64,000 nt of DNA from Phialocephala subalpina (Eukaryota; Ascomycota; Leotiomycetes; Helotiales; Mollisiaceae). The stretch is taken from the NCBI GenBank assembly GCA_900073065.1, contig FJOG01000018.1, forward strand, positions 614,079-678,078, in the 5' to 3' direction. The notes under the pieces are model-generated. The model was not told where the DNA came from. It made no database searches and saw only the letters and a list, made by a program, of their open reading frames with translations. Below are positions 1,083 through 62,514 of the stretch, one piece after another (position 1 is the first letter of the stretch; the number at the start of each line of letters is the position of its first letter). Position numbers and translations under genes: made by a program.

Positions 1083-4000
1083 CTAAGCCTGGCTCAAGAA
1101 CTTCAATGCCTCTTCCCTCTCATCAGCCGGCAACATGCTCAAAACCTGCTGTACACCCTTCAATCCACCCTTGCCATTACTCCTCAACAAACTCGCGACA
1201 TCGAAAGCCACGCCTTCAGTCTTGAGCGACTCAACCTTCTCATGAACAATCTTTCTGTTCTCCTCGTACCACATGGCGACATCTCTGTCCGCGAACGCGA
1301 AGTTGGGAACCGCGGTCCAGGCACCGAGAGTCTCGATGTTGCGTGCTCGTGATGCGAGAGGGTTCTTAGAAGCAGCAGCCATGCGCTTCAAGATGTACTC
1401 TTCGTTGACACGACGACGGACTCGCCAGTAGAAGAATCGTCGTGCTTCTCTCCAGACCAGAGATTGACGGATGACGTCCTTGGCCTTCATTCGGCCGGCT
1501 CGATCGTGGAGATCGGCGAATTGCAATGAGACCTGCATGTAGACTGGCAGGAGCAATTCTTCGCGAGCAGTAGCCTTGGCTTTGATTTGAGTGAGTTGTT
1601 CGGCACTCAATGACTTGTCGGCCAATTGCTTGCGAAGAGCACCGTACTCGGGATCCAGGCGGGCCATGGTCTCGAGTTGCTTGTCTTTGCGGTACTTGAT
1701 GTTGACGATACCTTCTGGCTCCAAGACACCACCGCGGGCGTCTTCGTCGGCGTACATCTCCATGAATTCGGGGTTGATCGTAGGATCGACAACGACCTGA
1801 GACAGATTAGCGAGAGCTTACGAAATACTTGTAATGATTGACTTACCCATGAGCCACCACGGAGCTCACCGAAAGGTGGAATGTAGACAAAGATTGGCTG
1901 CTCATACTTGACAAGCGCGTCGACAATGTAGGAACCATACTTGAGGACCTCATTGTACATGTCACGCTGGCCACCTGAGAAACCTCTCCAGTTGGCAAGG
2001 ATCATCAATGGCAATTGCTCACCATTGTTGAAGTCCTTGATGGCCTGAGCGGTCTTGAAAGCGGAGTTGGGGTACCAGACTCCACCAGCCTCGTTCGTAA
2101 TCTGTTCCATCGAATCGGGATTGGCGGGATCGGCAGGGGTGACGTTCTCCACTGATCGGGTTTCAACGGCAATAACACCCATTGGGATACCTCCAAGGCG
2201 TGCACGGCCGACAACGACAGTCTTGGCCCAACCACCAAGAGTCTCAACGAAAGAGTCCTTATCGAAGAGACCTGGCATGAATCCCTCGTCGTCGTCCTTA
2301 CCGCCAATCAACCATCTAACGTCGTATGATTGCTTGGGAGGTGGAGTGTAGACGATGTCACGGTCCCAAGAGTCGACAGCTGGTCCAATTGGCAGAGGGT
2401 TGTTTCGCTTGTCGGGAACATAGGCTATCCACTCAACAATCTTGGACACACCCTCGAAATCATCGTTGGCAGTCATGTGAGAGACACCGTTCTTGTACAT
2501 GATTTGAGTGCCACCAAGCTGCAAGTTGGAAGTGTAGACTTCACGACCCAAGAGCTTGTTGATAGCGGGAGCACCAGTCAAGATGATTGGCTGACCCTCG
2601 ATCTGGATAGCACGCTGGCCAAGACGGACCAAGTAGGCACCAATACCTGCGATTGTTAGCGAGTTTCTGCATTATAGGTGACGCGAATACATACCGACTG
2701 ATCTGCAAGTGACCAAAGTAATGGTGAATATGTCTTCGTAAGCTCTGCTGGTCGCACCAGCGATCAAACCAGAGCCTTTCAAACACTCAACACCAAGACC
2801 ATCCTCAGCACCGATGATGCCAGTGATCTTGTGTCTGACCTCTCCATCCTCGTTAATTTCCTCAGTGATGACATCCTTGGTCTTGCCATCCTCGAAGCGC
2901 TTCTTAGCCTCAGGCAACAAGTACAAGTACTTGAATCCAGCTTCTGGCTTCTCGGGATCGTTCCAGGCGACATTGAAGTGAGGAATGAGCTCTTCAGCCA
3001 TCCCAATGCGAGCACCAGAGTTGGCAGAAAGATAGATACGAGGGATACCAAGCTTGCGGGCAAGCTCAGTGCACTTGTGGAAGAAGTGATCTTCCTTGGG
3101 TCCGAAACTACCAATCTTGAATGTGATGTCGTTGGCAATGATGATGAACTTTCGGCCACGAGGATACTCAGGAGTTCTCGCAGTGACGATCCATCCGACC
3201 ATACCGCAGCTGTTGGTTCCAGGCTCGCGGAAGACCTCAGCAAGAGTGTCCTTGTCATCCAAGACGAGCTCGCTGTAATCGATGCACTCGCCAACAGGAG
3301 GTTGCTTCTCAGCCAAGGTTGGGTGCTGAGCAACAGCCTTGGTCCAGCTGTTTTGGATTGCTTGTCTGAAAAGCTCAGGGAAATCGTACACGTACTGAGT
3401 GCCCATAAGATGGGCTTTGTATCTCTTTGGCTGCAACCACTCCTTAGTAGGATATGGTGTTGATACAGGGCGCAGGTGCATCTGGCCAATCTTGGTAGTG
3501 CCTCCAATGCTCTGGAAGACCCAGTCGCCGCCCTTCTCGGACTTGCGCTCAGCGTACATCTCAACCTGGATGACATATCCAGACGTGTTGGTGATGGCAA
3601 CACGAAGAGGGTATGGCATGCCAGTGGTGGGCTCAGTACAGATGATACGGATTTCAGCACCAGTGACACGGAGACGCCAGAGACGACGACCGAAACGCTC
3701 CAAGAAACCACCAAGAGCCTTCTCAACCTCGGGTGGTTGAAGAGGGAAGACGGGGGTCAAGTTGATGAAAATGTGGTTGAGATCAGAGTTGTTGTTGCCA
3801 ATGATCTCAAGAGCATCGAGAATGTCGTTCATGAGTCTGTCGCACTCAGAGATGAGGTACTCAGCTGTTGGGATCTCATCACGTAGTCTTCCTGGACGGA
3901 CAACGGCGCGTGTGAAGTATCGCTTGTCACCCTCAACATTCTTGGCAGTAGCCTCGTAGATGTGGATGTTTCTGTTCTCAGCAAAGACAGGCTTGATTCG

Positions 4001-7000
4001 GAAGTTGGAGAGTCTTCCAAGTTCAAGCTGGAAAGCCAAAGCGGGTTCGATGTGACGAATGCTCTGGTCTTCCTCATACTCGGGGCCACGGAAAGTGTAG
4101 TAGCCTGGGTATGATCCGTCCTTGTGACCGCAAATGAATGTGAGTCGTCGAATGCGGCGAGACAGGAGCTCCTCCTTGTAGTCCTTGACGATCAAGTTGA
4201 TTCTGCTGATGGTCTCCTTGTCGTCCATGCTCTCAGCGTCACGGACAGCGACGTTGCAGACAGCAGTGAGCTCGTCCTCAGTAGCAATTGGAGCAGGTAC
4301 TTTTCGCTTGCCGCTCAAATCTGGCATGGTGGTGGCATTTGTTGGAATGGGGCGCTTCTTTTGTCCGTATATTGGGAAGACCTCAAGAGCACGCATGAGA
4401 TACTCTTCAGCCTCGTCGAGGTACTGGACTGGGACAATGACACCCTTTCGGGTTGGCTCGTCACCAGCCTTGCCGACCAAGTATGACATATCAGAGATAG
4501 AGCTGACACGCTTGAATGGGTTGGCAATGTCGTACGAGGGAGTGGCGGGGGTGGATGGAGCGGATGATTGGATTGGCATGCCGAATTCTGAGGCACCAAC
4601 TTTTCGGAGAACGAAATCCCATGAGACGACAAATGGAGGCTCAGAAGCATCGTTGTGGTACTCAATCTTCTTGAGTGAGTAGGCACGGTAAGCGCGTCGG
4701 ATATAGACTTCCAATGCGGCGAGGGAGACCCATGGGTCTGAGTAACCGAAGAAGATGGGGAGAACATCAAAGACGGTGTACTTGGAGTCAACAACCTCCT
4801 TGAGAACCTCAAGGTCGGGCTCGCGGTGCTCCCAGCCAGTCTCGCCATATCGTGACTCAACAACTGATGATCGGAGAATGTGCTCCATTTGAGAAGCTCG
4901 CTCCTCCAAAGATGGCATAGCACATTGGATGAGGGTCTCACGAGCTTTCAATGCAACTTTGGCGGTTGGTCGGGATTCCAGCTCGGTGAGCATTTTGAGA
5001 GCTGGTCGGAAGTGCTTGGCGATGTTGCCGGCGTTTGGCTTGTTTGGTCTGTACTCATCGAGGATGGCAAGAACCAAGTTGTTCTTTGAGCCAATTCTGC
5101 TGTGCGAAAGAACATAGCCGATGACTTTGGTGATATCGTCCTTGTTTTGATCTCTGAGCATCAAAATGACCTCCTCATCGCGGGTTTGGCGACCAGAGAA
5201 CAATCGCTCAACGCCACAGTATTGCTCAAGGAGTTGAGAGAAGATATCGAATTCGTGAACCTTCTGTCCCTCAAGGTATCGGTCAATGACCTCAATCAAT
5301 GGAGTAAGAGTAGTCTTCAACAAATCAACATCGGAAGGAGCAACGTTGTCCTCCAAGAACTTCTGAAGAGCCTTCTGGAGGTTCTTAGCTGGGAACTCGC
5401 CCTTGCGTTGTTTTGCGCGGTCCACGATTTGTGTGAAGGTAGCATCAAGACGCTGTGGCATTCTGGCGTGGAGCGCTGAGAATTGGGCATTCCATTCTCC
5501 ATATGGCAACTCTGGGTCGCGAAGAACATCAATTAACTCCTTGAGAGTGGATGCCATGATAACTTGGTTGTCAAAGCCATCAAGGATGTTCTTGAGAATG
5601 CTGTGGAGAAGGACGAATCGCTGAGCAGGCTTGGTGCCAACGACTTGTGGTGGTCCGAGGTCTGGGAGGTGGCCAAGGAAGGGCTGTGCGTGCTTGACTC
5701 TGGATGGGTCGTCGAGAGCGAGTATACCGAGAATGTCACCGGCCTCGAGAGTAGCTCCTGGCTGCTTGATGAGCTGCACAATACCGTCTTCTTGGGCAAG
5801 AAGAGGCATGTACATCTTCATGACCTCGACTTCAGCGAATGGCTGACCGGCCTTGATGTGCTCACCGTTGTCAACAGTGTACTTGACAAGCTTTCCGGGA
5901 GATGGTGTTCGAAGTTGAGATGGGTCGTTCTCTTGCTCGAGCAAGCAGGTCTTGCTGTCGACACTGAGACGAGTCGCTCCAACTTCCTCCTTCCAGTAGA
6001 CGTTGTGACTGCGTCCGCTGAGAAGAACAAGGAGACCACCGTCGCTGAGAGCACGAACACCAACCGAGCACTTAGAGCCGTTGATGAAAAGGTGGTAGCT
6101 GTCCAAGCTCGATCGGGTGGCGGTGAACTTGTATCGGTGGCCATCGTAGATGAAGTCGATGGGGAAGACAGTCTTCAAAGTCTCCTTGGCGGGAACTTGA
6201 CCTTTCTCTAAGCTCAATCGGTACTCGGCAATGCAAGCTTCGCTCGCGATGTGTGCCTTGGTGACAGCACCGCAAACGACTGCAAGCATGGGATCTGGTC
6301 GCTCAGCAGTAAGCTTGTTGGAGATCAGCTCATCTAGCCATCCAGTGGTGATTGTGTTGTCCTCGAAAGCTGGAGTTTCCAACAGCTTGATCAAGTACTC
6401 CACAGTGGTTCTGAAATCACCACGAATGCTCAATTCCTTGAGAGCGACGACCATGTGTTTCCGCGATGCAGATCTGTTCTCGCCATAGGCGAAAATGTGA
6501 CCGAATTGTGAATCGGAGAAACTGTGGATACCACCAGCAGTTCCGACTGAGAAGTAACCCCAGACGTTGGAGCTAGATCTGAAGTTCAACTCGTGCATCA
6601 TACCGCTGGAAGGCTTGAAACCCTCTCCAGGATCTTCGGAAGTGATACGGCAGGCAGTGGTGTGGCCTTTGGGTGTGGGTCGTCGCTGAGTGAGGGCGCT
6701 GTTCTCCTTGGAGAAGTCAAAGTCGATTTCACCTGAGCTGGAGGGATCAACTCCGTATAATAATCTAATGTCGCGGATTCGGTGGAGAGGAAGACCCATC
6801 GCAATTTGGAGTTGTGCTGCTGGCAAGTTGACTCCGCTGACCATTTCAGTGGTAGGATGTTCGACTTGGAGACGGGGATTAAGTTCCAAGAAGTAGAATT
6901 TGTCGTCGGCATGCGAGTAGAGGTACTCAACAGTACCAGCAGAAACATAACCAACGAGACGACCAAGACGGACAGCCGCCTTCTCCATTGCCTGGAAAGT

Positions 7001-8134
7001 GGCTGGCTTCGCAATTGTGACTGGAGCCTCTTCGATAATCTTTTGATGTCTTCGCTGGACCGAGCAATCTCTGCCGAATAGCGAAATGTTGTTTCCGTAC
7101 TCATCAGCCAACAATTGGACCTCCAAATGTCTGGCATTACCAGCGAGCTTCATAATGAAGATTGGAGAACCTGGGATTTCGCTGGCAGCGGCTTTGTAGA
7201 GAGCCTCGAAACCTTGCTCAGACTCGGCCTTCCGGATACCCTTTCCACCACCGCCTTCTGAAGCCTTGATCATGACTGGAAAGCCAATCTCGTGGGCCTT
7301 CTGAAGACCTTCTTGCCACGATTGAACGCAACCCTTCATGTAAACGTCGTCGTCAACCGTGACAATGCCATCGTCGTTGATCGCAACCTTGTCGACACCA
7401 GTTCCAGACCATGGTATACAGGGGACCTTGGCGTGTTGCGCGACGATTGTGGAGGAGATCTTGTCACCGAGCGATCGCATGGCAGACCCTGGCGGGCCTA
7501 TGAACACAATCTTCTTTGATGACGCTGCTAACGATTCTGGCAATTTTGGGTTTTCTGAAGCGTGTCCCCTATTGTCCGTCAGTAAGTCGACTTTCAGTGA
7601 AAATCTGAGTGGATTTACCATCCTGCCCAAACTGCGTGCACGTTCATGCGCTCCGCAACATCTACAATCAATTCGACGTTTGCGTAGTTGTTGTTGTTTG
7701 TCCCTCCCGGGACTTCGACATATTGATCTGCCATCCGGATATAATCTGCATTTGCCTGCAAATCCTCCGGTGTGGCCATCACCGTGAACTGAATAGCTCT
7801 CTCGTCGCCGAAGGTCTCGTAGGCCCATTTTCGCACCGATCGAATTTCCTTAACTGCTGCAATACCATTGTTGGCAATCAGGACCTATTCGCAGATGTCA
7901 GCTTATACCTCTTTTCCTCTTCCGGACCTCCTCAACAGAAATACGCACATTGGTGATGACGGTGTGTCCATCGTGGGCAGCTACAAAGTCTTTTACTTTG
8001 CCTGGAGCTGCATTCTCCAACCTATTTCCACCGATGAAGTGGTCTGCCAGGTTGTGTTTGGCTGCGTAGGAGGTTGTGCCGTTCATGATGGGGACAGTGC
8101 CGGTGGCCTTCCCATTGCCATTTACTTCGGCCAT
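1083..8134 (-). CDS. ACC1: Acetyl-CoA carboxylase (multidomain, cytosolic)
   Basis: This biotin enzyme carboxylates acetyl-CoA to malonyl-CoA, the committed step of fatty-acid synthesis. I join five exons: 8134-7949, 7884-7619, 7568-2695, 2646-1847 and 1796-1083. All junctions keep frame and have GT..AG ends, giving 2279 residues, the normal fungal length. In order the protein has a biotin carboxylase/ATP-grasp region (about 45-560), a biotinyl domain with the motif EVMKM (lysine about residue 735, the position known for yeast Acc1), a long central region, and the carboxyltransferase region (about 1550-2260). A phosphosite-like motif [10 protein letters not shown] near residue 1174 (codon near 4500) fits the AMPK/Snf1 consensus and matches the place of yeast Ser1157; regulation by Snf1 is inferred from this. 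No ATG occurs in the 250 nt before the chosen start, so no upstream ORF is evident. Identity is secure. Confidence 0.97.
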
Positions 8135-24104: not shown

Positions 24105-26247
24105 ATGGCTTCATATAACACCTACAGTTCCACTGCCAGTTCCGAGCTGTCTACTCCGAGATCTACCTCCCCGTCCTCTGTCATCAGCCGGAACTCCAGC
24201 ACTACTACCATCTCCAAGCGAATGTCTCTGTCAGGAAGACGTATTTCAGGATTCAACCCAATGGCTGCCGTGGACGTTGAACAAGTTGAGGCTGCCATGA
24301 AGATGGCTGCTCTTGATTCTTTCAAGGGTTATGCCCAGAACAACTATGGTACCCTTCACCAGTACCGGTCAACAGACTATGTAACCAAGAACAACGCTGG
24401 AGGTTACCAAGTCCTCCGGGAACCTGCGTGGAACAAAGGTATGCCCTCACTTTTAACTTTCTCCGGCTCGTATTAATGGTTTGCTCGCAGGCACGTCGTT
24501 TAGCCCTGAAGAGAGAGTATCCAAAAACCTATCTGGGCTCATACCTCATGTCCTAGAGACCTTGGAGACGCAATGTCAACGAGCCATGCGAATGATCAAC
24601 AGCCGCGGAACGAACGTCGACAAATACCTCTACCTCTCATCCCTCAAACAAAACAACACCGACCTCTTCTACCGCCTCCTAATCGACAATGTCCAACAAC
24701 TCATGCCACTAGTCTACACCCCCACCATCGGCGACGTCTGTCTTCAATACTCAACTCTCTACACACACCCTGAAGCACTCTACATCTCAATCAAGCAACG
24801 AAAGAGCATTGCGACGATTCTGAGGAATTGGCCGTACCCGGAACCATCTATTTGCGTGGTGACGGATGGATCCCGTATTCTCGGGTTGGGTGATCTCGGC
24901 GTAAATGGCGTTGGTATTTCGGTAAGTGGGGGTCCTGCAGATAATCTTCCGAAGTAGCCTCATTATTATGGACTGACGCTAACGTGACCCCCCTTTCTAG
25001 ATCGGGAAACTCGCCTTGTACACAGGAGCAGCAGGTATTCATCCCGAGAAGACACTGCCTATTGTTCTCGATTGCGGAACCGCGAATGAGGGTAACCTTC
25101 GGGACCCACTGTACTTGGGTCTCAGACAGAAGAGGCCGAGCCCGGAAGTCCAATTGGAGTTCATGGATGAGTTCATGGCGGCGGTGAAGGAGGTGTATCC
25201 TAACATGGTTGTTCAATTTGAGGATTTCGAGACCGAGAAGGCTTTCGCCTATCTTGAGCGATACAAGCACACCCGCATGTTCAACGACGACATCCAAGGT
25301 ACCGGTGCCGTCGTTCTAGCTGGGTAAGTCCCTCCACATCACAAACTTAAACATAACTAACACGACTCAGTTACATGGGAGCAGTGAACCTCTCCGGCGT
25401 ACCCATCGAAGACCAACGCCTCGTCTTCATGGGCGCCGGCTCAGCAGGTGTCGGCGTCGCCAAACAAGTCATGGAATTCTACACCAAACGCGGTCTATCA
25501 GAGCAACAAGCTCGCGACAAATTCTACCTCGTCGACACCAAGGGTCTCGTGACCAAGGATCGAGGTGATCGTCTTGCTGAGCATAAGAAGATCTTTGCTC
25601 GTTCAGACAATAATGGTCATCAATTCAGTACTCTTGAGGCTGTCATTGAGTATGTCAAGCCTACTGCTTTGATTGGTTTGACTGCTACTTTTGGCGTCTT
25701 TACCGAGTCGGTGGTCCGCGCTCTCAAAGTCTCAGTCGATGCCGGCGGACTTGGACGAAGACCCATCCTCTTCCCTCTCTCGAATCCCCTCACCAAAGCC
25801 GAATGCACATTCGAGCAAGCGATTACCTGGACGGAAGGAACAGCCATCTTTGCTTCCGGGTCTCCTTTTTCACCATTCACAACAAAATCTGGAGATATGA
25901 TCCAAACCTTCTACCCCAATCAAGGAAACAACGTTTATGTTTTCCCTGGTCTTGGTCTTGGTGCTATTCTCGCAAAGACCTCGAGAGTCACTGACTCGAT
26001 GGTCTACACTTCTGCTGCTGCTTTGGCTGGATGCCTCAACAGTGAAGAGATTCGCATGGGTCTCATCTACCCCAAGATTGACCGCGTGAGAGATGCTTCA
26101 GTCGTCGTCGCGAGAGAAGTGATGAAGACAGCCCGCAGAGAAGGTGTCTCGGAACTACCAGAGGAGACATGGGTAGAGTGGGAAGAATGGGGAGACGTCG
26201 CGTTGACAGCTTGGATTAAGAAGCAAGTTTATGATCCGAAGTGGTAG
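24105..26247 (+). CDS. Malic enzyme (NAD-type)
   Basis: Malic enzyme decarboxylates malate to pyruvate with NAD(P) reduction. Four exons, 24105-24438, 24491-24921, 25001-25323 and 25371-26247, join in frame to give 654 residues. Introns have GTAAG/GTATG donors and, in the third, an ACTAAC branch site. The malic N-domain carries the family motifs LYTGAAGIHPEKTLP, LDCGTANEGNL and FEDFETEKAF, then the metal-binding FNDDIQGTG. The NAD-binding domain begins VFMGAGSAGVGVAKQ, and FPLSNPLTKAECT and FASGSPFSP follow. The first 55 residues are Ser/Thr-rich with several Arg and resemble a mitochondrial presequence or a disordered extension; localisation is not certain. NAD rather than NADP preference is inferred from the fungal mitochondrial family type. 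Confidence 0.94.
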
Positions 26248-31670: not shown

Positions 31671-34600
31671 ATGGAGTCTCTATTCTCGCTGCCCCTGCCC
31701 TTTCAGCGCCGTTTAACGAAGATGTAGTATGTACCGATTTCTGTTATAGTTTATTCTTCTCTTATATGGGAATTCCGAAACCGGAAGTTATTTCCTGAGC
31801 TGGGACACCTAGACACATGGATATCACATCTCTCAGCAGCTCGGGAGCTTTCTCATCTTAACTGTATGTTCACTATGCTAATTCAATGTAGCACGGACAC
31901 AAAGACGAGCTATGAATTTGTCAAGGAGCCAATCAATACACCTCAAGAAGACCCAGAGTTGCAAGTTCTGCATCGAAAGCTCCGCATTCAGAAAGACAGG
32001 CTGGTGAGCTGGGGACTAGAATGGAGTGACCCAGAGCAATCAACGTCACCTGATATAGACGAAAGCATAAACAAAGCTGGTCTATCGGAGCTCGTTGGCA
32101 GTGTGATGGGTACTATCAAAGAAATTCTAGCTGAAGCCGAACCATTATGGGCTGCTAGCCGACGAATCGGTGCTAGTGGAGATGTGGGTGAGAAGGGAGA
32201 GAAGAGCAAAAGTGCGTTGATTATTTGGGACAAGAGCAGATTTCAAGACCTGATCCGGGACTTGACGATGAGTATTGATACTCTTTATGATCTCTCCCGC
32301 ACTAGGCAATCAGCGAGGAAAATCCCAGAGACAAGGAAAGAGGAGGAGAGTATGATGGCGGTGCAGAAGAAAGTCATTGAGGAGAGACAGTTTGAGAGCT
32401 CGAGGATGCAGACACCGCAACAGGTTGACCCGAAAAGTATCATCTGGCCAAGAGAGATGAAGACGATGCCGGCAGGTATGTTGCCTCCCGCCAAATCGAA
32501 CAGACAGATTGTCTTCATGAGAAGACCAACGACTTCGCTACAAGAATCGAGGAAGATAGGTATGGGTGGACAATCATTTCCTGCTGTTCCGGTGTTATTG
32601 GAGTACGCGCCTTACGATCCTATTTATTCCATTACGGGTATCACACCTTCTCTCACTCGCTTCGAGAAACTTTTCGCCGCGCTCTCGCAATCTTATATAT
32701 CGACGGGAAGGATCTTGGTTGGTTTGCTGGGTCTGATTGGGTATTTTGAGGAGCCGGAGCATTCGCGGTTTTGTCTCCTGTACGCCTTACCGACGCACTT
32801 TGGACCGATCGACATCGAAAGCCCTAGGATGCCGTCGATCACTATCCTCTCGGACCTTCTGTACAGCCAGAACTACGAGCCCAGTCTTGAGGTTAAGTAT
32901 CGTCTAGCTTATAACGTGGCCAGTGCCGTTTTTGATCTTCACGCAAAAGGAGTTGTGCACGGGAATGTTGTCGCTTCGAACATTTTGTTCATCGAACATC
33001 AGCCGCAGAATCGACTCGACTTGAGCCAGGTCAACATGCGACAATCGTATCTCACCTCCTGCGACCTTTTCTCTGATAATGCTACAGACAGTTCCGACAC
33101 ATCGCCAGATCCTTTATCCTTATACAGGCATTCTCTGGATCCTCGAACCACTCGATATACGCGCCTCACTTCGGAAAGCAAGTCTTTGGACTTGTACAGC
33201 TTAGCCATGCTTCTCCTGGAAATCGGTCTCTGGACCTCCCTTCACGACATCTTCCCTATGGCTTCCGCTATTCCAGAGAACCCAGTAGGTGTTCTCAAAC
33301 AGCTCGCGGCTCGATGCGGAAGTCTTTATGTCAAGGCTGTGCAAGCATGCTGGAATGCCCCCAACGACGAGCTCTCGCAAAGAGCAAGACCCGATGTTAT
33401 GCATCAAAAGGTCTTCTTCAAAGTCTCTAAGGCTCTCGATACTTGCTGCGCTATCGATGAGAGTTCGGATGAGTCTACTGAAGAGAGTGATGATTCTCCT
33501 CCAATACCCTCCACGCCGCTGAAGGCATCGAGATCATCGACACCTCTGAGGAAACCGATCACTGAGAAGAAGTCAACCATAGCTTTGAACGTGGTTCCGA
33601 GCACGTCGACACAAGCTGGATCAAGACCTTCGTGGTCAGAGAAGAGCTCGTATGGGAAGTCGCCTAGTAGTTTCCCCGAGAAGATGGGATGGTCTGAGAA
33701 ACCAGTAGTCAAGGCACATGGTATGTTCACGATCTACACTATTTCTTGGCTTTACTGACCATTACAGCATCAACACCAATCCCCGAGAAAGCCAAATCCA
33801 AGCTTCGAACCTACCCATCCCTCAAAATAAGCCCCGAGCTCCTCGACTTCTGGCAAAGTGGTCTGCTACCCCACATCAACCACGTCCTCCGCGGTTTTTA
33901 TAGGAAATATCCCGAGTCGGTGGAGATAAGTCTTGAAAGCATCGGCGAAACACCTGCGACAGCCAAACCCACAATTCTTGTCATCTGCACCAGTGTGACC
34001 AAAGTCCGAAGCATACTCAAGAAGCATTTGGCCTACGATAAGCAAGTCTTTGGACTCAAGGTCTGCCGCGGCAAAGTTGTTCGTTCCCGTAAGCATGGCA
34101 CGAAGCGATCCATGGGCCACGACAGCGATGTTCTCGAAGCTGCGAATCCAGGTCATCAAGAATGTCCGACTAATGGAGCATCAATCGGCGCATATGTCGA
34201 TGAGAAGCATCTCCCTCCTGTCTCACTCGGCGGCATGATCATCATCGATGACAAACCATACGGCATGACAGTCCACCACATGCTTGACGACCCATCAGAT
34301 AACGAAGACGACGAATCCCTCGACACAACAGCCCCCATCCTCCGCTCCTCAGCCTACGGAGGTGTACCCGACCTCACCTTCTCCGAATCATCCATCTACA
34401 GCGGAGACGAAGAATTCATGTACACACTCTCCGACTTCGAGTCTGACATCGACGACAACTCCAGCATCCACTCCTCGGAATACGATTCCGATGACGAAGA
34501 TCTCCTCTCCCTCTCTGCATTCGACGAAAATCAAGACGATGAGGAACAAGCCCCAGGTGATATTCCCGGTGTCCCTATTGGCTGCGGAGAATCGTATTCG

Positions 34601-35611
34601 GTCACACAACCAGCAATCGACGACATCCCCTCAGATTTCTATCCCGACCCTTCAACCAGAGACGAAGACCACCTCGACTCCTTCCAACTCGGTTCTATCT
34701 ACGCTTCCTCCGGCATCCGTCGCAGAACCGAGAACGGAGTAGTGCATGAAGTAGACTGGGCATTATTCTCCTACTCCTCTTCCCGACTCCCGACAGCGAA
34801 CTCCATTCCCGGCGGATCACGCTACTTGCCTTCGCACATCGATCAATCATCCTATCCAACGGCTGTCAAACGAACTGATGAGTTAAGCAACATGCCGGTT
34901 CACTGCCTTGCTCGCACATCTGGCTTACAAGCTGGGAGGATAAGTCAGTCCATGGTCTCCGTCAAAATATTCGGTCGCCAATCCCCCTCGCTATCCTACC
35001 AAGTCTCCTCTCATCAACAAAAACTCGGTATCCCAGGCGATTCGGGCGCTTGGGTTATCGGCAATGATGGGGAAGTATGTGGCTGTGTCTTAGCCTGGAG
35101 CACCAAGAAAGGCGTCGCATACATCTGCCCCATGGACGTTCTCCTCCGCGATATCGGTATTACGTTGAAAGCTAAAACCGTCAAGCTACCTAGAGGAGAA
35201 GTTGTTTATGAAAGAGTGGGTACGCAGGAAGTCGAAATCCAGGAGCCAGAACCCCGTCGCGGACGCCAACAAATTGACGTCTTGGACGAGTCCGAAATCA
35301 CCAAGATGTTGCAAGAACTCAAGTTACCGCCCACGCCAACACAGATCGACGACCTCGATCCTTCCACTATCCAACAGATCGCAGGGTTATACCCCTCTCA
35401 TTCACCTTCTCCTTCCGAAGGGCAAGAACGGAATGAGAGAGCGTTGGGAAAAGAGAGGGAAAGAGATAATCAGAAAGAAGATATGAGTTTCCTGCCAATG
35501 AGGATGATGAGTTCGGGACACAGCTCCGGGCAGAAAGGAAGGGTTAGTGTTAGTGAGAGGAGTATGATACCGCAGAGGGTGAGGGAGGGGTTGAGTGTTA
35601 GTTCGAGTTGA
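31671..35611 (+). CDS. HeLo-like / pseudokinase / trypsin-like protease protein
   Basis: Exons 31671-31726, 31892-33720 and 33768-35611 join in frame to give 1242 residues. Residues about 20-170 match the HeLo membrane-active cell-death domain: the pattern SYEFV, then [12 protein letters not shown], then [16 protein letters not shown], then [17 protein letters not shown] follows HeLo helices in order. Residues about 260-520 are kinase-like ([12 protein letters not shown] in place of the HRD loop, [15 protein letters not shown] as subdomain IX) but lack the catalytic Asp and a clear DFG, so this is a pseudokinase. After a Ser/Thr-rich linker, residues about 640-1110 look like a chymotrypsin-fold protease: MTVHHML (His 798/799), VDWALF (Asp 958) and GIPGDSGAW (Ser 1054), with an acidic insert between His and Asp. 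The second intron (47 nt, CTGAC branch) proves the fusion if correct. The first exon is uncertain. Role in regulated cell death is inferred. Confidence 0.72.
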
Positions 35612-36066: not shown

Positions 36067-38234
36067 TCACATTCTATATTGCGTTAGCACGATGCATTCT
36101 TCAAAAGAAGAGTAAAGAGATTGAAATGGGAGACCTTACCGCTCAACAGGCGACAACCCCAATATGCGCATGCCGTTATTCAGCACAATCCTCGCCGCAT
36201 CATAAAGCGCCATACGAGCCTTCGCCAACTCCGGCTCACTTCCAACAATTCGAAGATGATCATAACTACTGCTCAGTGTATGCGTCATCTTGAACAGATA
36301 CGTGAGAATGGTTGTCGGCTCCAGGGTCTTCAATGTGTTCTGAACCACGTCCGGATATTGACTGATAACACGGATCAGATTCTGAGCATGTGGTTCAGAG
36401 AGTAATGAGAGGTCGGCGGTGAGGAGGTCGTCTTCCGACATGTTCGCACGACGGGTGATGGAGCAGAGACGGGCGTGGGCGTATTGGAGGTATGGTCCTG
36501 TGTCTCCTTCGAAGGAAGTCATGGCTTCCATGTTGAATTCGTAGTTGTTGATACGCTTGCCAGACATATCTTGTACCATGACGGAGCTGATACCTAGAAT
36601 ATCGGCCGTAGCGACAGGATTCTCAACTTGTTCGTATTTGGCCTGGTTCTTCTGCATCACTTCATGCATCTTTTCTCCCACGTCTCGCAAGATGTCGTCG
36701 AGGAATTTAACCGTTCCTTTTCGAGTCGACATTCCGAGGACCATACCGAAGTTGATATGCTTGCATTTTGCGGCAAGTTCCTTGTAACCCATCAATTCGA
36801 TGATCTTGAAGAGTTGCTTTAAGTGCAGGTCCTGTTGGGAGGCAACGACGTAGATCATCTCGTCGAAGTGATATTTGTCTTCTCGTTGCATCATCTCACT
36901 GATATCACGAGTGAGGTAGAGAGCCGTGCCGTCTTTCTTCTTTATAATCGGGCGCTCGAGCGATGTACCTGGCTTGCCCTTGATGTGTTTGCTGAAGTCA
37001 ACGATGACAGCTCCTTCCGATTCTTCTGAGACGCCCATATCGGCCATCTTCTGTGAGGCGAAATCCATGCGCTCTTGTTTGACCTGACTCTCGCCGGAGT
37101 AGTCGTCAAAGTGGATGTTCAGACGAGCATAGGTCTCCTTGTATCGTTTGATGCTCATATCACGGAATCGAGCCCATTGTGCAATGGCCTTCTCGTCACC
37201 ATCGACCATGGCCTTGAAGTATCGACGGGCTTGCTCGTCTAGACCTTCATTTTCCAACTCCAGTGCCTCCTTGTCCTTGCCCGCCTCCTTGAACTCCTTG
37301 ATTTGGTCCTTCTCGGCAGACAGATCCTTGCTGATCTTGACATAGATATGGAAGAGGTGGTTGATAGGATCGGACAGAAGTTCGTTTTCGTCACCATACT
37401 TCTCGAATCCAAGCGCCAACAATCCGTATTGTTTGCCCCAGTCTCCCAAGTAATTGACCCGAATCACGTCCCAGCCTAATCCCTCATATAGATTTGCTAA
37501 GAATCCGCCAATGATTGTACTGCGAAGATGTCCAGCGTGGAAAGGTTTCGCAATGTTTGGTGAGGAAAACTCAATAATGATCCTCTTCTTGCCCTTGCTC
37601 GGATCTTGATTTTCTTTCAGACCGAGATATGGATTCAGTCCATAGTTGTTCTTTCGATGGATAATTGAGGGTACGAGGAGTTCCGCAAGTTTGTCGACTT
37701 TGAAGAAGAATTGCAGGAAGGTTCCCGTAACGGTGGGTTTGTGGACAAGAGGTGATTCGGGAAACTGGCAGAGGAACGTTAGCAGAAAATCTTCCCAATG
37801 AGTAGCAAACAATTTCACACCTTCTCCACCCACTCAGCGGCAAGCTCAGGAGGCTTTTTGCCCTTAATTCGGAGTGCTGGTACAGGCAAGACCAAGTCGC
37901 CCTTCTCTAGTGTTTGCGTCCATTGCAAGGCGGGGTATATGATTGAGGCGTCAACGCCAGTGACTCCTGTGAGGATTGAAGTGAGGTGTGCTCGGTAGAT
38001 ATCGATAGGGTTTACTTCTGGGAAGCAATTCGGGTACTTTGGCAGAGTTTCTGTCAAGCTCAGCGACTTGAGCGCGTCCGACAGAGAAGACGCTGCGGCC
38101 GCCATGCTGCAGGTTTGAGTGAAAGCGCGTTTGGTCGGCAGACGCGTTCTAATTAGAATTAGCTTAATTCGAGATGCAGAAACTCCAAGGCACAGTCGAG
38201 ATATTCCTGTCAAGCAAGAAAGAGAAGTATTCAT
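36067..38234 (-). CDS. Arginyl-tRNA synthetase
   Basis: This class I enzyme charges tRNA-Arg. Exons 38234-37821, 37764-36140 and 36073-36067 join in frame to give 681 residues. The HIGH-type motif appears as SSPNIAKPFHAGHLRST and the KMSK-type loop as GMSTRKGT. The last exon is only 7 nt (A ATG TGA); with it the protein ends in SPVERM, the C-terminus nearly universal in this family, while the unspliced frame would stop at VER. The first 43 residues are rich in Arg, Leu and Ser without acids, like a mitochondrial targeting sequence. A second Met at 38105 (MAAAASSL) would start a 638-residue cytosolic form. Dual targeting from two starts is known for fungal tRNA synthetases and is inferred here. 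Confidence 0.95.
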
Positions 38235-55967: not shown

Positions 55968-57029
55968 ATTCTACAGCATTCGCGTTCGCGTTCGAGATGT
56001 CGATTCCAGATGTCCCTTCCAAGGTGGAACAATGGTAGCGGATATGGTTGTGAAGCTTGAGAATCTTGAGGGTTGCCGAGAAGAAGCTTTGGCTCAAACG
56101 TCAAGAACACGGACCAGATCAGACGTAGAATGTCACTCGGTGGGCTGTTCTTTGACCAGGAAATAAATTGTGCAATGAATTGTAACGCGACCGAGCAGGT
56201 AGCAGCACAGAGGAAGGAAAGATGTATTCTAATTATCACAAGCTTGCCGTCTGACGGGCCAGAGCAAGGAAGCAGATGTTAGCTAGCGCGAACGGGTGCA
56301 TAAAACGTCATAGAGCGCATTCAAGATCACCAACCTTGCAACAAGACGAAGGAGAACGTTGGACGATTTTCACTTCAAGAAAACGATTGTTTGACTATAA
56401 AGAATGTACAGCACAACGAAGGACATTGACAAGATTCTTACCTTATATACCGTCTGGTGTTGCCAGCTTTCATTTTCCGAACTTTGCTCATGCGACGGGG
56501 ATGTTTCAGATCCATCCCATTGCAGCTTCGAGGATCCCTTTCTCCTCTCGACTCTGCCTGAAGCTTCCTGCAGCAATTTTACCTCCAAGTAATGTCAAAT
56601 AACCAGGTGAAGCAACCCCACTTGATTGAACGCGCCACCATGCGTTTATGAATCCTCGTAACCACGTGAATCTTTAAAGGTGGCGGAGAATCGTTCCGCC
56701 GCTTGCCGAAGGAATCAGTCCAAAGCTTGAATCGCTGACATAGAAACACTCAAACGAAACAAATCCCACTGTCAACTGCCCTTTCTTGCCAAGCCCTGCG
56801 AAACATTCCCTCGCAATTTATCTGCTACCCAATACGAAATCATCTCGCCCGCAAAAACGAGTGTTGTCCGGCGGCAAACCTGATGTGCTGAGCGTACCAC
56901 GAGACAGCCCGCCTTCGATGGTTCTACAACGCCGATAGAAGCAAGGCTTTGCCTTTTGGCTTTCCTTCCCATCCCTCCCTCTCAAGAAACGTCGAATCTG
57001 GTTCATCTCAAAGCCCGAAGAACACAGCG
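55968..57029. promoter_or_regulatory. Divergent intergenic region (repeat protein / Doa10)
   Basis: About 1.06 kb separates the divergent start codons of the large repeat protein and the Doa10-like gene, so both promoters lie here. I see no convincing additional gene and no clear core promoter motif. Confidence 0.4.
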
Positions 57030-60000
57030 ATGATGGCAGATCCGCTGCCTCCGCCACCCGTGGAGGTGTCCTCTCCCGACATCATGAACGACCCTCAGTA
57101 TGCGACGAACACGGCGGAAGGTGAGGACGGTATGGGAGACGCAGATACTTGCAGGATATGTAGGGGCGAAGGTAGCGATACAGAACCTCTGTTCCATCCT
57201 TGCAAGTGTAGTGGCAGCATCAAGTATGTCCACCAGGACTGCTTGATGGAGTGGCTATCACATTCTCAAAAGAAACATTGCGAGCTTTGCAAAACCGCTT
57301 TCCGCTTTACGAAACTCTATTCTCCGAACATGCCACAGACACTGCCTCTTCACGTTCTATTACGGCATGTTGTCATCCATACGGCCAAGAATCTAGCGAC
57401 GTGGTTGAGGTTCTGCCTGGTTGTCACTGTCTGGTTGGGATTTCTGCCATATATTATCCGCCAAGTATGGCGTTTACTATTCTGGTTCAGTGACGGTGGA
57501 TGGCCGTCCAATTACCTTGTAGTCAGCACAAATCGCAATGGTACGTCGAAAGAAGCACTTGAGATGCTTCGAGAGTTGCAGCAGCTTGCCAACATGACAA
57601 GTAATGGAACCTCTCCAGTGTCTCCTCTTCAAGCCAGTCAAACCTCGTCTGCCAGTGTGAGTGGCGTTATGAACAAGCTCTCTGGCCTCCTTCTACCCGT
57701 CTCTCAGACTCTCAACATCAGCAGCCCGGATCCTCTTGCGGCCGGCTTGTTCAAGTCTATACTCTACGGATTAGGGCTCCAGAACGCTGTCGTCCCAGAA
57801 AGCCCAATTGCGAACACAACGATGCCTCCAGCCTTCACAGATCTTGTTTCAGCATACCGAGGGAGCTCGCTATTAAGCGAAATATCCTTTCTTCGCAATC
57901 TAACACGACATCCGTACGTCAATCAACTTGTTATCACAGTCGCCGAGGGATACGTGATCACTATAGTGGTTGTTGTGTGCTTCATTCTAGTGTTCTTGAT
58001 TAGAGAATGGGTTGTTCAGCAGCAACCAGGAATCAATATGGGTGCAGGATTTAATGCTGAATTCGCTGCACATGACAGACCCAGAGACCAAGAAGGCCCA
58101 GAAGGACAGCAGGATGCGGCTCGACCTGGCGTTGGTGCAAATCCATTGGGCAATAGACCAGACCGTCGAGACATTGGTCAGCGTCCGATGGCTCGTGCAA
58201 GACGTAGACACCATCACCATGAAGACGGTGGAGAGCATCGACCACGTGAAGCAGATGGAATCCGGGGACCCGAACAAGGGTCTGCTGCTGAAGCTGGAAG
58301 CTCGAATCATCGACCATCGCCCATTCGAGACGCATTATCACCAGCAGCAGAAATTCAAAGGCAGCTCGAGGAGCCTAGAATGACAGAAGAATTTCTTGCT
58401 ATCTGGAGACGAGCAGAGAGTAATCCCGAGGAGGTCCTGCGTATTATTGAGAGAGAAAATAAGGGGGAGGAAATGCGCTACTGGGTCAATGCGATGAAGA
58501 TTCTTCAGAGTCCTCCCCAGGAATCTGGCCCTCGACGTGACGAACCCTCACAAGCTCATCAACCGACGGCGCAATTGGAAGCTAGTGGAGACAACGTATT
58601 CAACCACGATATTGTTGGCTTTAGTAGCAGAGACAACTCAGCAGCTATCCAACCTGGAAGTGATAGAAGTAGCGCCAGCTCGGAGGGTTGGGTAGACCTT
58701 TCCAAGCCTTTGACTTCTCAAAACCTTAACTTACCAGAAACCAATTCTGTATTAGAGGACCAATGGGCCTCATCTAGTCATTCTCAAGACAAAGGCAAGG
58801 GGAAGGCCCAGGAATCGACAGCTTCCAGCTCTATTCAAGCTGTAGAAAACACATTCAAGCTCGATAGCCCGAGCGAGTCAAATAGTTTGCCAATTGGACA
58901 AGGCCATGGCCAAGGATTTGAGCATCTCGCCGAGTCTTTGAGTCCTCCTGACTCATGGTCAACACTTCCAAGTCAGAACCCATTCTCGGCATCTAGGCCA
59001 AGAGCGACCTCGGATGGTCCGCAGCTTCGAGACACCATCTCACCATTGGCAAATAACAATTGGACTTTCACAAATTTACCCGACAACGACCACACTCCTG
59101 CATTTTCTTGGAATAGAGAGAATCGGAAATCTCTGACCAACAATTCTCAGGACACTTCCTCCCTTGTCACGAGCGAGAAGTCTCAGCGCTTTGATGGACA
59201 ACACCAAAGCACCCAGCCATCTCAAGATGCTCCAGATTTGCACGTCCAACAAGCTATTGCAGAAGGCGACGAGACTGACGAGGCCACAACCGAAGATCTT
59301 TCGCAAACACCCGCTGTAGATCCGGATTTTGAGGGACCGATTACTATTGTTGGGAGAGACAAAGTTGAACGAACGTATGCCAATTGGGAGGAGGTGTTTG
59401 CCGCTAATCCTATGCCTACCGACTCCGACTCTGAGGATGAGCCTGGCGTCATTGAAAGACCAGATCCCCATTTTCAGCCGGATGTCCCTCTTCCAGAACC
59501 ACGGGAACCAATTGCGGTGCGCCAACCAGAACCACAAGGCATTTTAGCAAATATTGCCGACTTTTTATGGGGTGGCGTTGGCGATGCACGAGGAGAAGAC
59601 CAAGGCGCGAATGATGAGCATGTTGTGCATGATCTCGCTGCTGAAGCTCCATTTGTCCCTGTTCATAATGGCGTCTTTGAGCAAGCCGGAGATGCTGGGC
59701 AAGATCGTGAGGTTGTTGAGGCTGCTATCGCTGCTGGAATAGACCCCAACGACCAAGATGCCATCGATGATGCCGAAGACTTCGAGGGAATCATGGAGCT
59801 GGTAGGGATGCGCGGGCCTGTATTCAGTCTTGTTCAGAATGCCTTGTTCAGTGCGTTTCTTCTGGCTTTAACTGTTGCCTTCGGTGCCTGGATCCCTTAC
59901 AACATTGGAAGAGTATCACTTCTCTTACTGGCAAATCCAGGACCTGCCTTCAAGCTCCCACTGCGACTCGTTTTTGGGATTGCAGCCTTCTTGCAAGACT

Positions 60001-62514
60001 TGGCACTCTCGTTGGCTGGCGTCGTGTCGTACTGCGTACTCGCCATCCTCTCCTCGCCAGTAGCTATCTGGTCACAGTTCTCCACCTCTGCACCGACTTC
60101 CCTGGCAGCCCGAGGATGGGGACTTGGCTCCGCGGCTCTAAATATCTCCCATGGTGCTCTCGACAGAATAATGGGCGGTGCCGTCAACAGTTTTATCCAT
60201 ATCGCAGACTCTGAGATTTTCGCCTTCTCAGCAGCTTCACACGAGGCGCTTATCACGCTTCAATCACTCTTGGTAGACTCACTTGCTGGCCTTGGCAGCA
60301 GAGTAATCTATCTGTTCATCGGAGACTATCACATCACCTTGTCTAGCTGTCTTGCACTGGCAATTGAATCACTCAAGTCCACATGGCATTTAAGTCAGGC
60401 ATTGCCTGGCTACCTTGCCCGCCCTGAGACATGGGTCATCAGCCTGGAGGTTGGCAAAAGGGCCGCACCTCTTGATCTCGAGCTTAGCGTCTGGAGTGGC
60501 ACCGATCGCTTCTGGGCTACGATAGCTGGCTATACCGCTATCAGTGTTCTTGGTGCTCTCTATGTAAGAAAAGGCTCGCCATTCTCTACCAGCCAAATTG
60601 GACGGGAGTGGGAGGCAACCATCATAGATCTCCTCAACCAAGCCGGCGGTGTCATGAAAGTAATTTTGATAATCAGCATCGAAATGCTGGTCTTCCCGTT
60701 ATACTGCGGCCTTCTACTCGACGCTGCACTCTTGCCTTTATTTGAAAACACCACGATCATGTCGCGGCTTCTCTTCACCTTCGAGTCGCCATGCACTTCA
60801 ATCTTTGTACATTGGTTTGTAGGAACTTGTTACATGTTCCATTTTGCTCTCTTCGTTTCTATGTGTCGGAAGATCATGCGAAAAGGAGTTTTATGTAAGT
60901 GCTCTTCTTCTGAGTATTGAGTTATAGCTAACCACCCCAGACTTCATCCGCGATCCCGATGATCCGACCTTCCATCCCGTCAGAGACGTTTTAGAGCGAA
61001 ATGTAGCAACACAACTTCGGAAAATTCTTTTCAGCGCCCTAGTTTACGGCGGGCTAGTCGTCATCTGCTTAGGGGGCGTTGTATGGGGGCTTGCATATGC
61101 ATTTACCGGCGTTCTGCCCATTCACTGGTCGTCTAACGAGCCAGTGCTGGAGTTCCCTATCGACCTTCTATTTTACAACTTCTTGATGCCTTTGGCAGTC
61201 AGGTTCTTCAAGCCCTCCGATGGGCTTCACACGATGTACAGTTGGTGGTTCCGCCAATGCGCGAGAATCCTTCGACTCACTTGGTTTATGTTTGATGAAA
61301 GAAGGCAGGATGAAGAGGGATATCACGTACGACGCACTTGGGGCGACGTCTTACGTGGTGTCAAGGGTGACACATTTCTTGCAAGGAACCCTGACGATCC
61401 TAACGAGCCATTTGTCCAAGATCCTGAGCTTAGAGCATACTTCTACCAAGATGGTCGCTACGTGAGAGCGCCTGCCTCAGATCAAGTTAGAATCCCCAAG
61501 AACACGAGGATATTCCTCGAAGTGACTGAATTCAACGAGCGGACCGACGGAAAATGGGATCATCCAGATGGCGTACACGGGAAGAATTCAGCATTGTACA
61601 AGCAGGTCTACATACCACCATGGTTTCGAGTCCGAATCGCCCTCTTCATCTTATCGATCTGGATCTTTGCCGCTCTCACCGGGGTCTCGATCACAATCGT
61701 CCCTCTGGTTTTCGGACGTCAGATATTTGCCAGACTCATCCCTCCCCATGTCCGCAAGAATGATGTGTATGCATTCTCGATAGGCATTTACATCTTAGGG
61801 TCCACGCTATACGCCATCGTACACGTTGGAAAATTTGTCAATTACGTTCGCACGGCTTTAGCCATCGATGCCAACACTCCGATGAAAATCATACGACGGG
61901 TCGGCAACACCGCCGGTCTCCTCGTTCGCATAGCCTGGACATATACAGCTTTTCTCTTCGTTCTCCCTACTCTTTTCGCGTTCCTCGTGGAGTTCTACTT
62001 CATTGTCCCGCTTCACACTTATTTTGCAGTTGAAGAGCGCCATGTGGTACACTTCGTGCAAAGCTGGACCCTCGGTCTACTCTACGTCAAGCTTACGACA
62101 CGCATCATTCTCTGGCACGAAGACTCTCGCCCGGCAATATCCCTGCGTGCTATCACAGCAAAGGGGTATCTCAATCCAGATGCTTGGCTTGCGACACGCA
62201 GCTTCATCCTCCCCGCTGCCGCATCGCTTTCGTTTGCTCTTTCCGTACCCTGGTTATTTGCCAAGCTTGCGGTGCTTTCGGTGTTGAAGAACAATCCAGA
62301 GCAGCACATGCTGGCATACAGATACTCATATCCAATGTGTCTTTGCATGCTTTGCATTGGCTTCGCATTACACATTCTGCTTGGATGGTTGAAGGATTGG
62401 AGAATGAAGATTAAGGATGAGGTGTATTTGATTGGGGAACGACTACATAATTTCGGCGATAGGAAGTCTACTAATGCCGCAACTGTGCCGACAGTTAGGA
62501 GGCTCGAGACTTGA
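57030..62514 (+). CDS. Doa10/Ssm4-type ER ubiquitin ligase (RING-CH)
   Basis: Doa10 (TEB4/MARCH6) is a polytopic ER and inner-nuclear-membrane E3 ligase of the ERAD-C pathway. Exons 57030-60894 and 60941-62514 join in frame (T|AC) to give 1812 residues. The RING-CH finger lies near residues 39-92 ([29 protein letters not shown], CELC). Two membrane segments follow soon after, another near residue 320, then a long disordered acidic/Ser-rich loop (about 340-910). The C-terminal half has many hydrophobic helices. The intron has GCTAAC 14 nt before the acceptor, and exon 2 resumes with FIRDPDDPTFHPVRD, a conserved segment of the family. The start is the first ATG of a pair (57030, 57033). A short basic cytosolic tail ends the protein. 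Length and order of parts are normal. Confidence 0.95.

Follow-up and report, generated by a model that had tools for sequence, protein, structure and literature searches.

The gene analysed here lies in a window of 64,000 nt from Phialocephala subalpina (assembly GCA_900073065.1, contig FJOG01000018.1, positions 614,079–678,078, forward strand), to which all positions refer. Its three exons (Table 1) were joined by spliced translation into a product of 1242 amino acids followed by one stop, which was identical letter for letter to the 1242-residue GenBank protein PAC_11340 of P. subalpina (P0001 in our set). Both introns run from GTATGT to AG, with branch-like GCTAAT and CTGAC. An earlier sequence-only reading had placed a HeLo-type region, a kinase-like region and a protease in one spliced frame, and this parsing was upheld, both by the identity of the product with PAC_11340 and by the recurrence of the architecture in relatives.

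Upstream, a malic enzyme gene (PF03949) was found at 25357–26247, while arginyl-tRNA synthetase domains at 36136–37833 lie on the opposite strand, convergent with the gene. A deposited Chlorociboria protein (P0038) has malic-enzyme domains fused to a protein of the same SltB type (see below), a fusion that may stem from a merged gene model and so mirror this neighbourhood. Elsewhere in the window there were an acetyl-CoA carboxylase (2672–7849) and, in adjacent frames at 56892–62514, RING-variant and MARCHF6 C-terminal domains, which may belong to a single intron-containing gene for a Doa10-type ubiquitin ligase.

Table 1. Features of the gene and its product, in positions of the 64,000-nt window
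Feature	Position	Strand	Remarks
Exon 1	31671..31726	+	residues 1–18 and part of 19; N-terminus short, hydrophobic HeLo helix absent
Intron 1	31727..31891	+	165 nt, GTATGT...GCTAATTCAATGTAG
Exon 2	31892..33720	+	remaining HeLo-like region, pseudokinase, beginning of disordered linker
Best HeLo (PF14479) stretch	31956..32144	+	residues 41–103, matching profile positions 32–92; profile start absent from stretch
Pseudokinase	32421..33470	+	residues about 196–545; limits carried over by eye from model of relative P0028
Intron 2	33721..33767	+	47 nt, GTATGT...CTGACCATTACAG
Exon 3	33768..35611	+	linker end, alpha/beta region, protease, C-terminal tail, stop
Alpha/beta region preceding protease core	33788..34162	+	mostly pLDDT >90, weak at model residues 105–113
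Chymotrypsin-fold protease core	34160..35197	+	structure model
His798-His799 (VHH)	34274..34279	+	both invariant, 90/90 A1 and 29/29 A3
Acidic insertion, catalytic His to Asp	34289..34603	+	low confidence: pLDDT <50 at model residues 179–207, 217–233, 248–251
Asp958 (HEVDW), proposed catalytic Asp	34754..34756	+	invariant, 90/90 and 29/29
Ser1054 (GDSG), proposed catalytic Ser	35042..35044	+	invariant, 90/90 and 29/29

A search with the protease half alone (E ≤ 1e-3) found 831 relatives, of which 120 were listed. By hand count, 114 of these 120 were 974–1412 aa long, under a length filter of 0.55–1.75 times the query that biased the search toward long proteins, and 92 carried a precomputed HeLo Pfam model at the N-terminus. 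A second search found 319 relatives, and the model was precomputed in 99 of the 120 listed (hand count). When both listings were pooled (13 proteins being common to both), the HeLo model was counted by hand in 178 of 227 distinct proteins among the matches listed; the architecture proposed in the sequence-only reading recurs in relatives. The possibility that separate genes had been wrongly merged was rejected because the same fusion recurs among relatives.

Matches listed in the second search included Neurospora, Pyricularia, Parastagonospora, lichen fungi and Geoglossum; the classes of the named relatives we take to be Leotiomycetes, Sordariomycetes and Dothideomycetes, besides the lichen fungi and Geoglossum. 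No Eurotiomycete was recognised by name among the named matches listed, and neither was the Aspergillus nidulans protein. Two alignment sets, A1 (n = 90) and the diverse A3 (n = 29), with five proteins in common, were picked from 344 listed proteins; the window protein could be aligned over its length with relatives from other classes at 33–47% identity. Within the P. subalpina genome the protease half matched once, i.e., it is single copy, and the kinase-like part had eight weaker relatives. A search for stand-alone protease relatives gave 278 matches; the 120 listed were 443–813 aa, mostly metagenome proteins, and resemble the final exon of this family. Viral contigs gave one pattern match and no relative, while an NCBIfam scan gave a few weak matches, mostly kinase-like and far under cut-off. 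One fungal-type relative of 1246 residues (P0013) is deposited under a Rickettsiales metagenome assembly, and is probably contamination.

The HeLo-type region noticed from the letters was borne out by a Pfam scan, in which the window protein scored 28.8 bits for PF14479 against a cut-off of 23.2. HeLo killers rely on a membrane-attacking helix at the extreme N-terminus (PMC12881547, PMC10197012), and this helix was missing here: the maximum 19-residue Kyte-Doolittle mean over the first 60 residues was -0.11. The same was true of the relatives, where the maximum over the first 45 residues did not exceed 0.34 in 75 of 75 members of A1 (15 of the 90 were excluded, their annotated start being further on) or 0.15 in 27 of 27 members of A3 (two of 29 dropped). 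As controls, eight loci were taken from the 23 HeLo matches in the same genome; three of these begin too late in the profile for the test, while the other five gave, where their HeLo match begins, values of 0.87, 1.27, 1.51, 1.56 and 2.01. Two HeLo-pseudokinase paralogues from the genome gave N-terminal values of 1.40 and 1.65.

The kinase-like region was described earlier as being without catalytic residues, and as to the catalytic lysine the alignments agreed. At the VAIK, HRD and DFG sites the window protein reads VLLE, HGN and DLF. The beta-3 lysine was missing throughout, being replaced by Glu in 90 of 90 sequences of A1 and by Glu or Asp in 29 of 29 of A3. The DFG aspartate was retained in 87/90 (A1) and 28/29 (A3), and the HRD aspartate in 5/90 and 18/29 respectively. 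PF24476 (DUF7580) scored 21.0 bits, under its cut-off of 27, with the DUF7580/kinase-like match at residues 349–510, and a search of PDB sequences with the kinase-bearing half gave weak kinase matches. The relative whose model supplied the limits of this region is without exon 1. Of the eight weaker kinase-part relatives in the genome two were scanned (L019, 1329–3212, and L020, 1433–3385), and both are HeLo-DUF7580 pseudokinase genes with no protease in frame and with the hydrophobic N-terminus retained; they are better MLKL-like candidates than the window gene.

For the C-terminal half, structure prediction gave a chymotrypsin fold around the GDSG and VHH motifs, as had been supposed, and the motifs themselves, Ser1054 and the Asp-Ser spacing of 96 residues were all as first read. 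His799 is the putative catalytic histidine, and the proposed triad H799/D958/S1054 follows the order His, Asp, Ser within a chymotrypsin-type fold in the model. Between the histidine and the aspartate lies an acidic insertion with a median length of 97 residues (86–846) in the 89 of 90 A1 proteins measured, where Asp and Glu make up 31% and the medians are 31 acidic and 2 basic residues, and of 105 residues (80–238), again 31% Asp+Glu, in all 29 of A3; over the whole protein the proportion is about 14%. This insertion, acidic, disordered and some 100 residues long, may be a new point, and could serve as a cation sensor. A PDB search by sequence found no match for the protease half, and PF08192 (MEROPS S64, Ssy5) gave none in the window protein at E ≤ 1 or E ≤ 0.1.

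Comparison with the literature placed the gene very probably as sltB of P. subalpina, a root endophyte, encoding a signalling protease with a HeLo-like/pseudokinase prodomain. SltB of A. nidulans (AN6132) was described in 2015 as a protein of 1272 aa, whose kinase-like region at 350–550 is without VAIK, HRD and DFG and whose C-terminus is an Ssy5-like serine protease, with 69 homologues in Pezizomycotina only (PMC4557415). AN6132 was compared by this published description, and the window protein resembles it in size (1242 against 1272 aa), order of parts, C-terminal chymotrypsin-like protease, Pezizomycotina distribution, and a kinase-like part without VAIK/HRD/DFG that was matched at 349–510. 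The HRD aspartate, absent from SltB in print, is nevertheless retained in some relatives, as given above. Of the published triad, Ser1142 is stated, while the His (925 or 939) and the Asp are uncertain in PMC4557415 itself. The mutation G1156R (sltB105) lies 14 residues past Ser1142 (PMC4557415); the matching glycine was invariant (90/90 A1, 29/29 A3), and stood at +14 from the serine in 25 of 29, at +13 in two (one of them the window protein), at +15 in one and at +24 in one. The alpha/beta region before the protease core probably corresponds to the published 'SltB-CR'. One feature did not fit: the published His-Ser distance, 217 or 203, is shorter than all those in 29 measured relatives (240–413). 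Orthology with A. nidulans SltB is inferred from published features, this spacing excepted. SltA sites (AGGCA) were about as frequent upstream as by chance (3 were counted in 1150 bp, where 2.2 would be expected, and 34% of sliding windows reach as many), and no literature was found on three locus tags searched for.

In A. nidulans, cation and alkaline-pH tolerance depends on SltB, acting via SltA, and the null mutant is sensitive to both stresses (PMC4557415); auto-proteolysis is stated to free the pseudokinase prodomain, after which SltA78 is converted to SltA32 (PMC11011638). The self-cleavage guessed at in the sequence-only reading is consistent with this account. In the mechanism proposed here, the N-terminal HeLo-like region and the pseudokinase would together form the regulatory prodomain, from which the protease would cut itself loose; once freed, it would cut the zinc-finger factor SltA to the 32 kDa form, and this would control cation-homeostasis genes as well as sltB itself. 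The likely trigger would be cation or alkaline stress. By analogy with A. nidulans, the same self-cleavage and SltA cleavage are expected in P. subalpina.

The front half of the window protein has the make-up of a cell-death executioner's core, and other readings take this likeness further. An unlikely one has SltB as a tamed necroptosis-type module, in which a HeLo-pseudokinase executioner minus its membrane helix was recruited to a NAL1-fold protease as its sensor and prodomain, while the acidic loop would sense cations or pH. In its boldest form, the freed HeLo-pseudokinase piece would still be membrane-active. Mutations in sltB, not all of which alter salt tolerance, restore growth in mutants lacking Vps20, Vps32 or Vps3 (PMC4557415), and action of the freed piece on membranes would explain this rescue. 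A damped or different membrane role of the HeLo-like part is possible.

Very unlikely is an MLKL-like executor, whose attached protease would free the HeLo part to permeabilise membranes. The order of parts is that of MLKL, a HeLo match over cut-off followed by a pseudokinase, and fungal HELL domains fused to kinases or pseudokinases have been called MLKL-reminiscent (PMC12881547). Against this, the hydrophobic helix was missing from every testable relative (75/75 and 27/27) while same-genome controls had it (0.87–2.01), the gene is single copy, and the A. nidulans null is cation- and alkali-sensitive (PMC4557415). The earlier interpretation stands in its division into HeLo, pseudokinase and chymotrypsin-fold protease, and is unsupported in the terms 'undescribed' and 'cell-death executor'; an undescribed death system was rejected because the hydrophobic N-terminal helix is missing and the features match SltB. 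Least probable of all is an SltB-family protein with an altered role in Leotiomycetes, for which orthology drawn from published features and the unenriched AGGCA sites could be cited, but which sits badly with a single-copy gene, invariant active-site residues and alignment over its length with other classes.

With the gene very probably identified as sltB, what was supposed to be a novel death system takes its place in a known stress pathway. Three features would be added to the picture of SltB, namely an N-terminus resembling HeLo, a protease half resembling NAL1 and an acidic insertion that is possibly cation-sensing; moreover, an invariant aspartate at HE[IV]DW stands in the expected place, whereas the published triad Asp is uncertain. 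That the N-terminus of SltB scores as HeLo in Pfam may be a new point: the word does not occur in the available text of PMC4557415 or PMC11011638, and a literature search pairing SltB with HeLo gave unrelated papers only. If a HeLo-pseudokinase works in a pathway other than cell death, the pairing alone is no evidence for a death function.

Among known systems, HET-S/HELLP effectors and MLKL share with the window protein the N-terminal HeLo match, and the MLKL pseudokinase likewise adjoins a helical domain; unlike them, the window protein has no hydrophobic N-terminal helix and has an additional protease. PskA proteins are relatives of the SltB N-terminus without the protease (PMC4557415). HeLo-pseudokinases of this type (DUF7580) have in common with the window protein a HeLo followed by a kinase-like region, but differ in having no protease in frame and a retained hydrophobic N-terminus; the two clear cases in the P. 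subalpina genome are candidate PskA-type proteins. Rice NAL1 is predicted to be similar in fold to the C-terminal half (about 16% identity, rmsd about 4.3), in a structural alignment that begins at model residue 15 and takes in the alpha/beta region; there is no match to it in PDB at the level of sequence, and its solved constructs with stated limits cover residues 31–458 at most. NAL1 is not named in the available text of PMC4557415, nor did a literature search on NAL1 give such a mention among the matches listed, and the NAL1-like fold of the modelled half may be a new point. Yeast Ssy5 (MEROPS S64), named together with Stp1 in PMC4557415, is 25% identical to SltB over 68 aa as published there and differs in that its profile has no match in the window protein; it is likewise a chymotrypsin-like endoprotease acting on a transcription factor. 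With SltB itself, the window protein shares a single chain in which an N-terminal kinase-like part is followed by a linker and a C-terminal serine protease.
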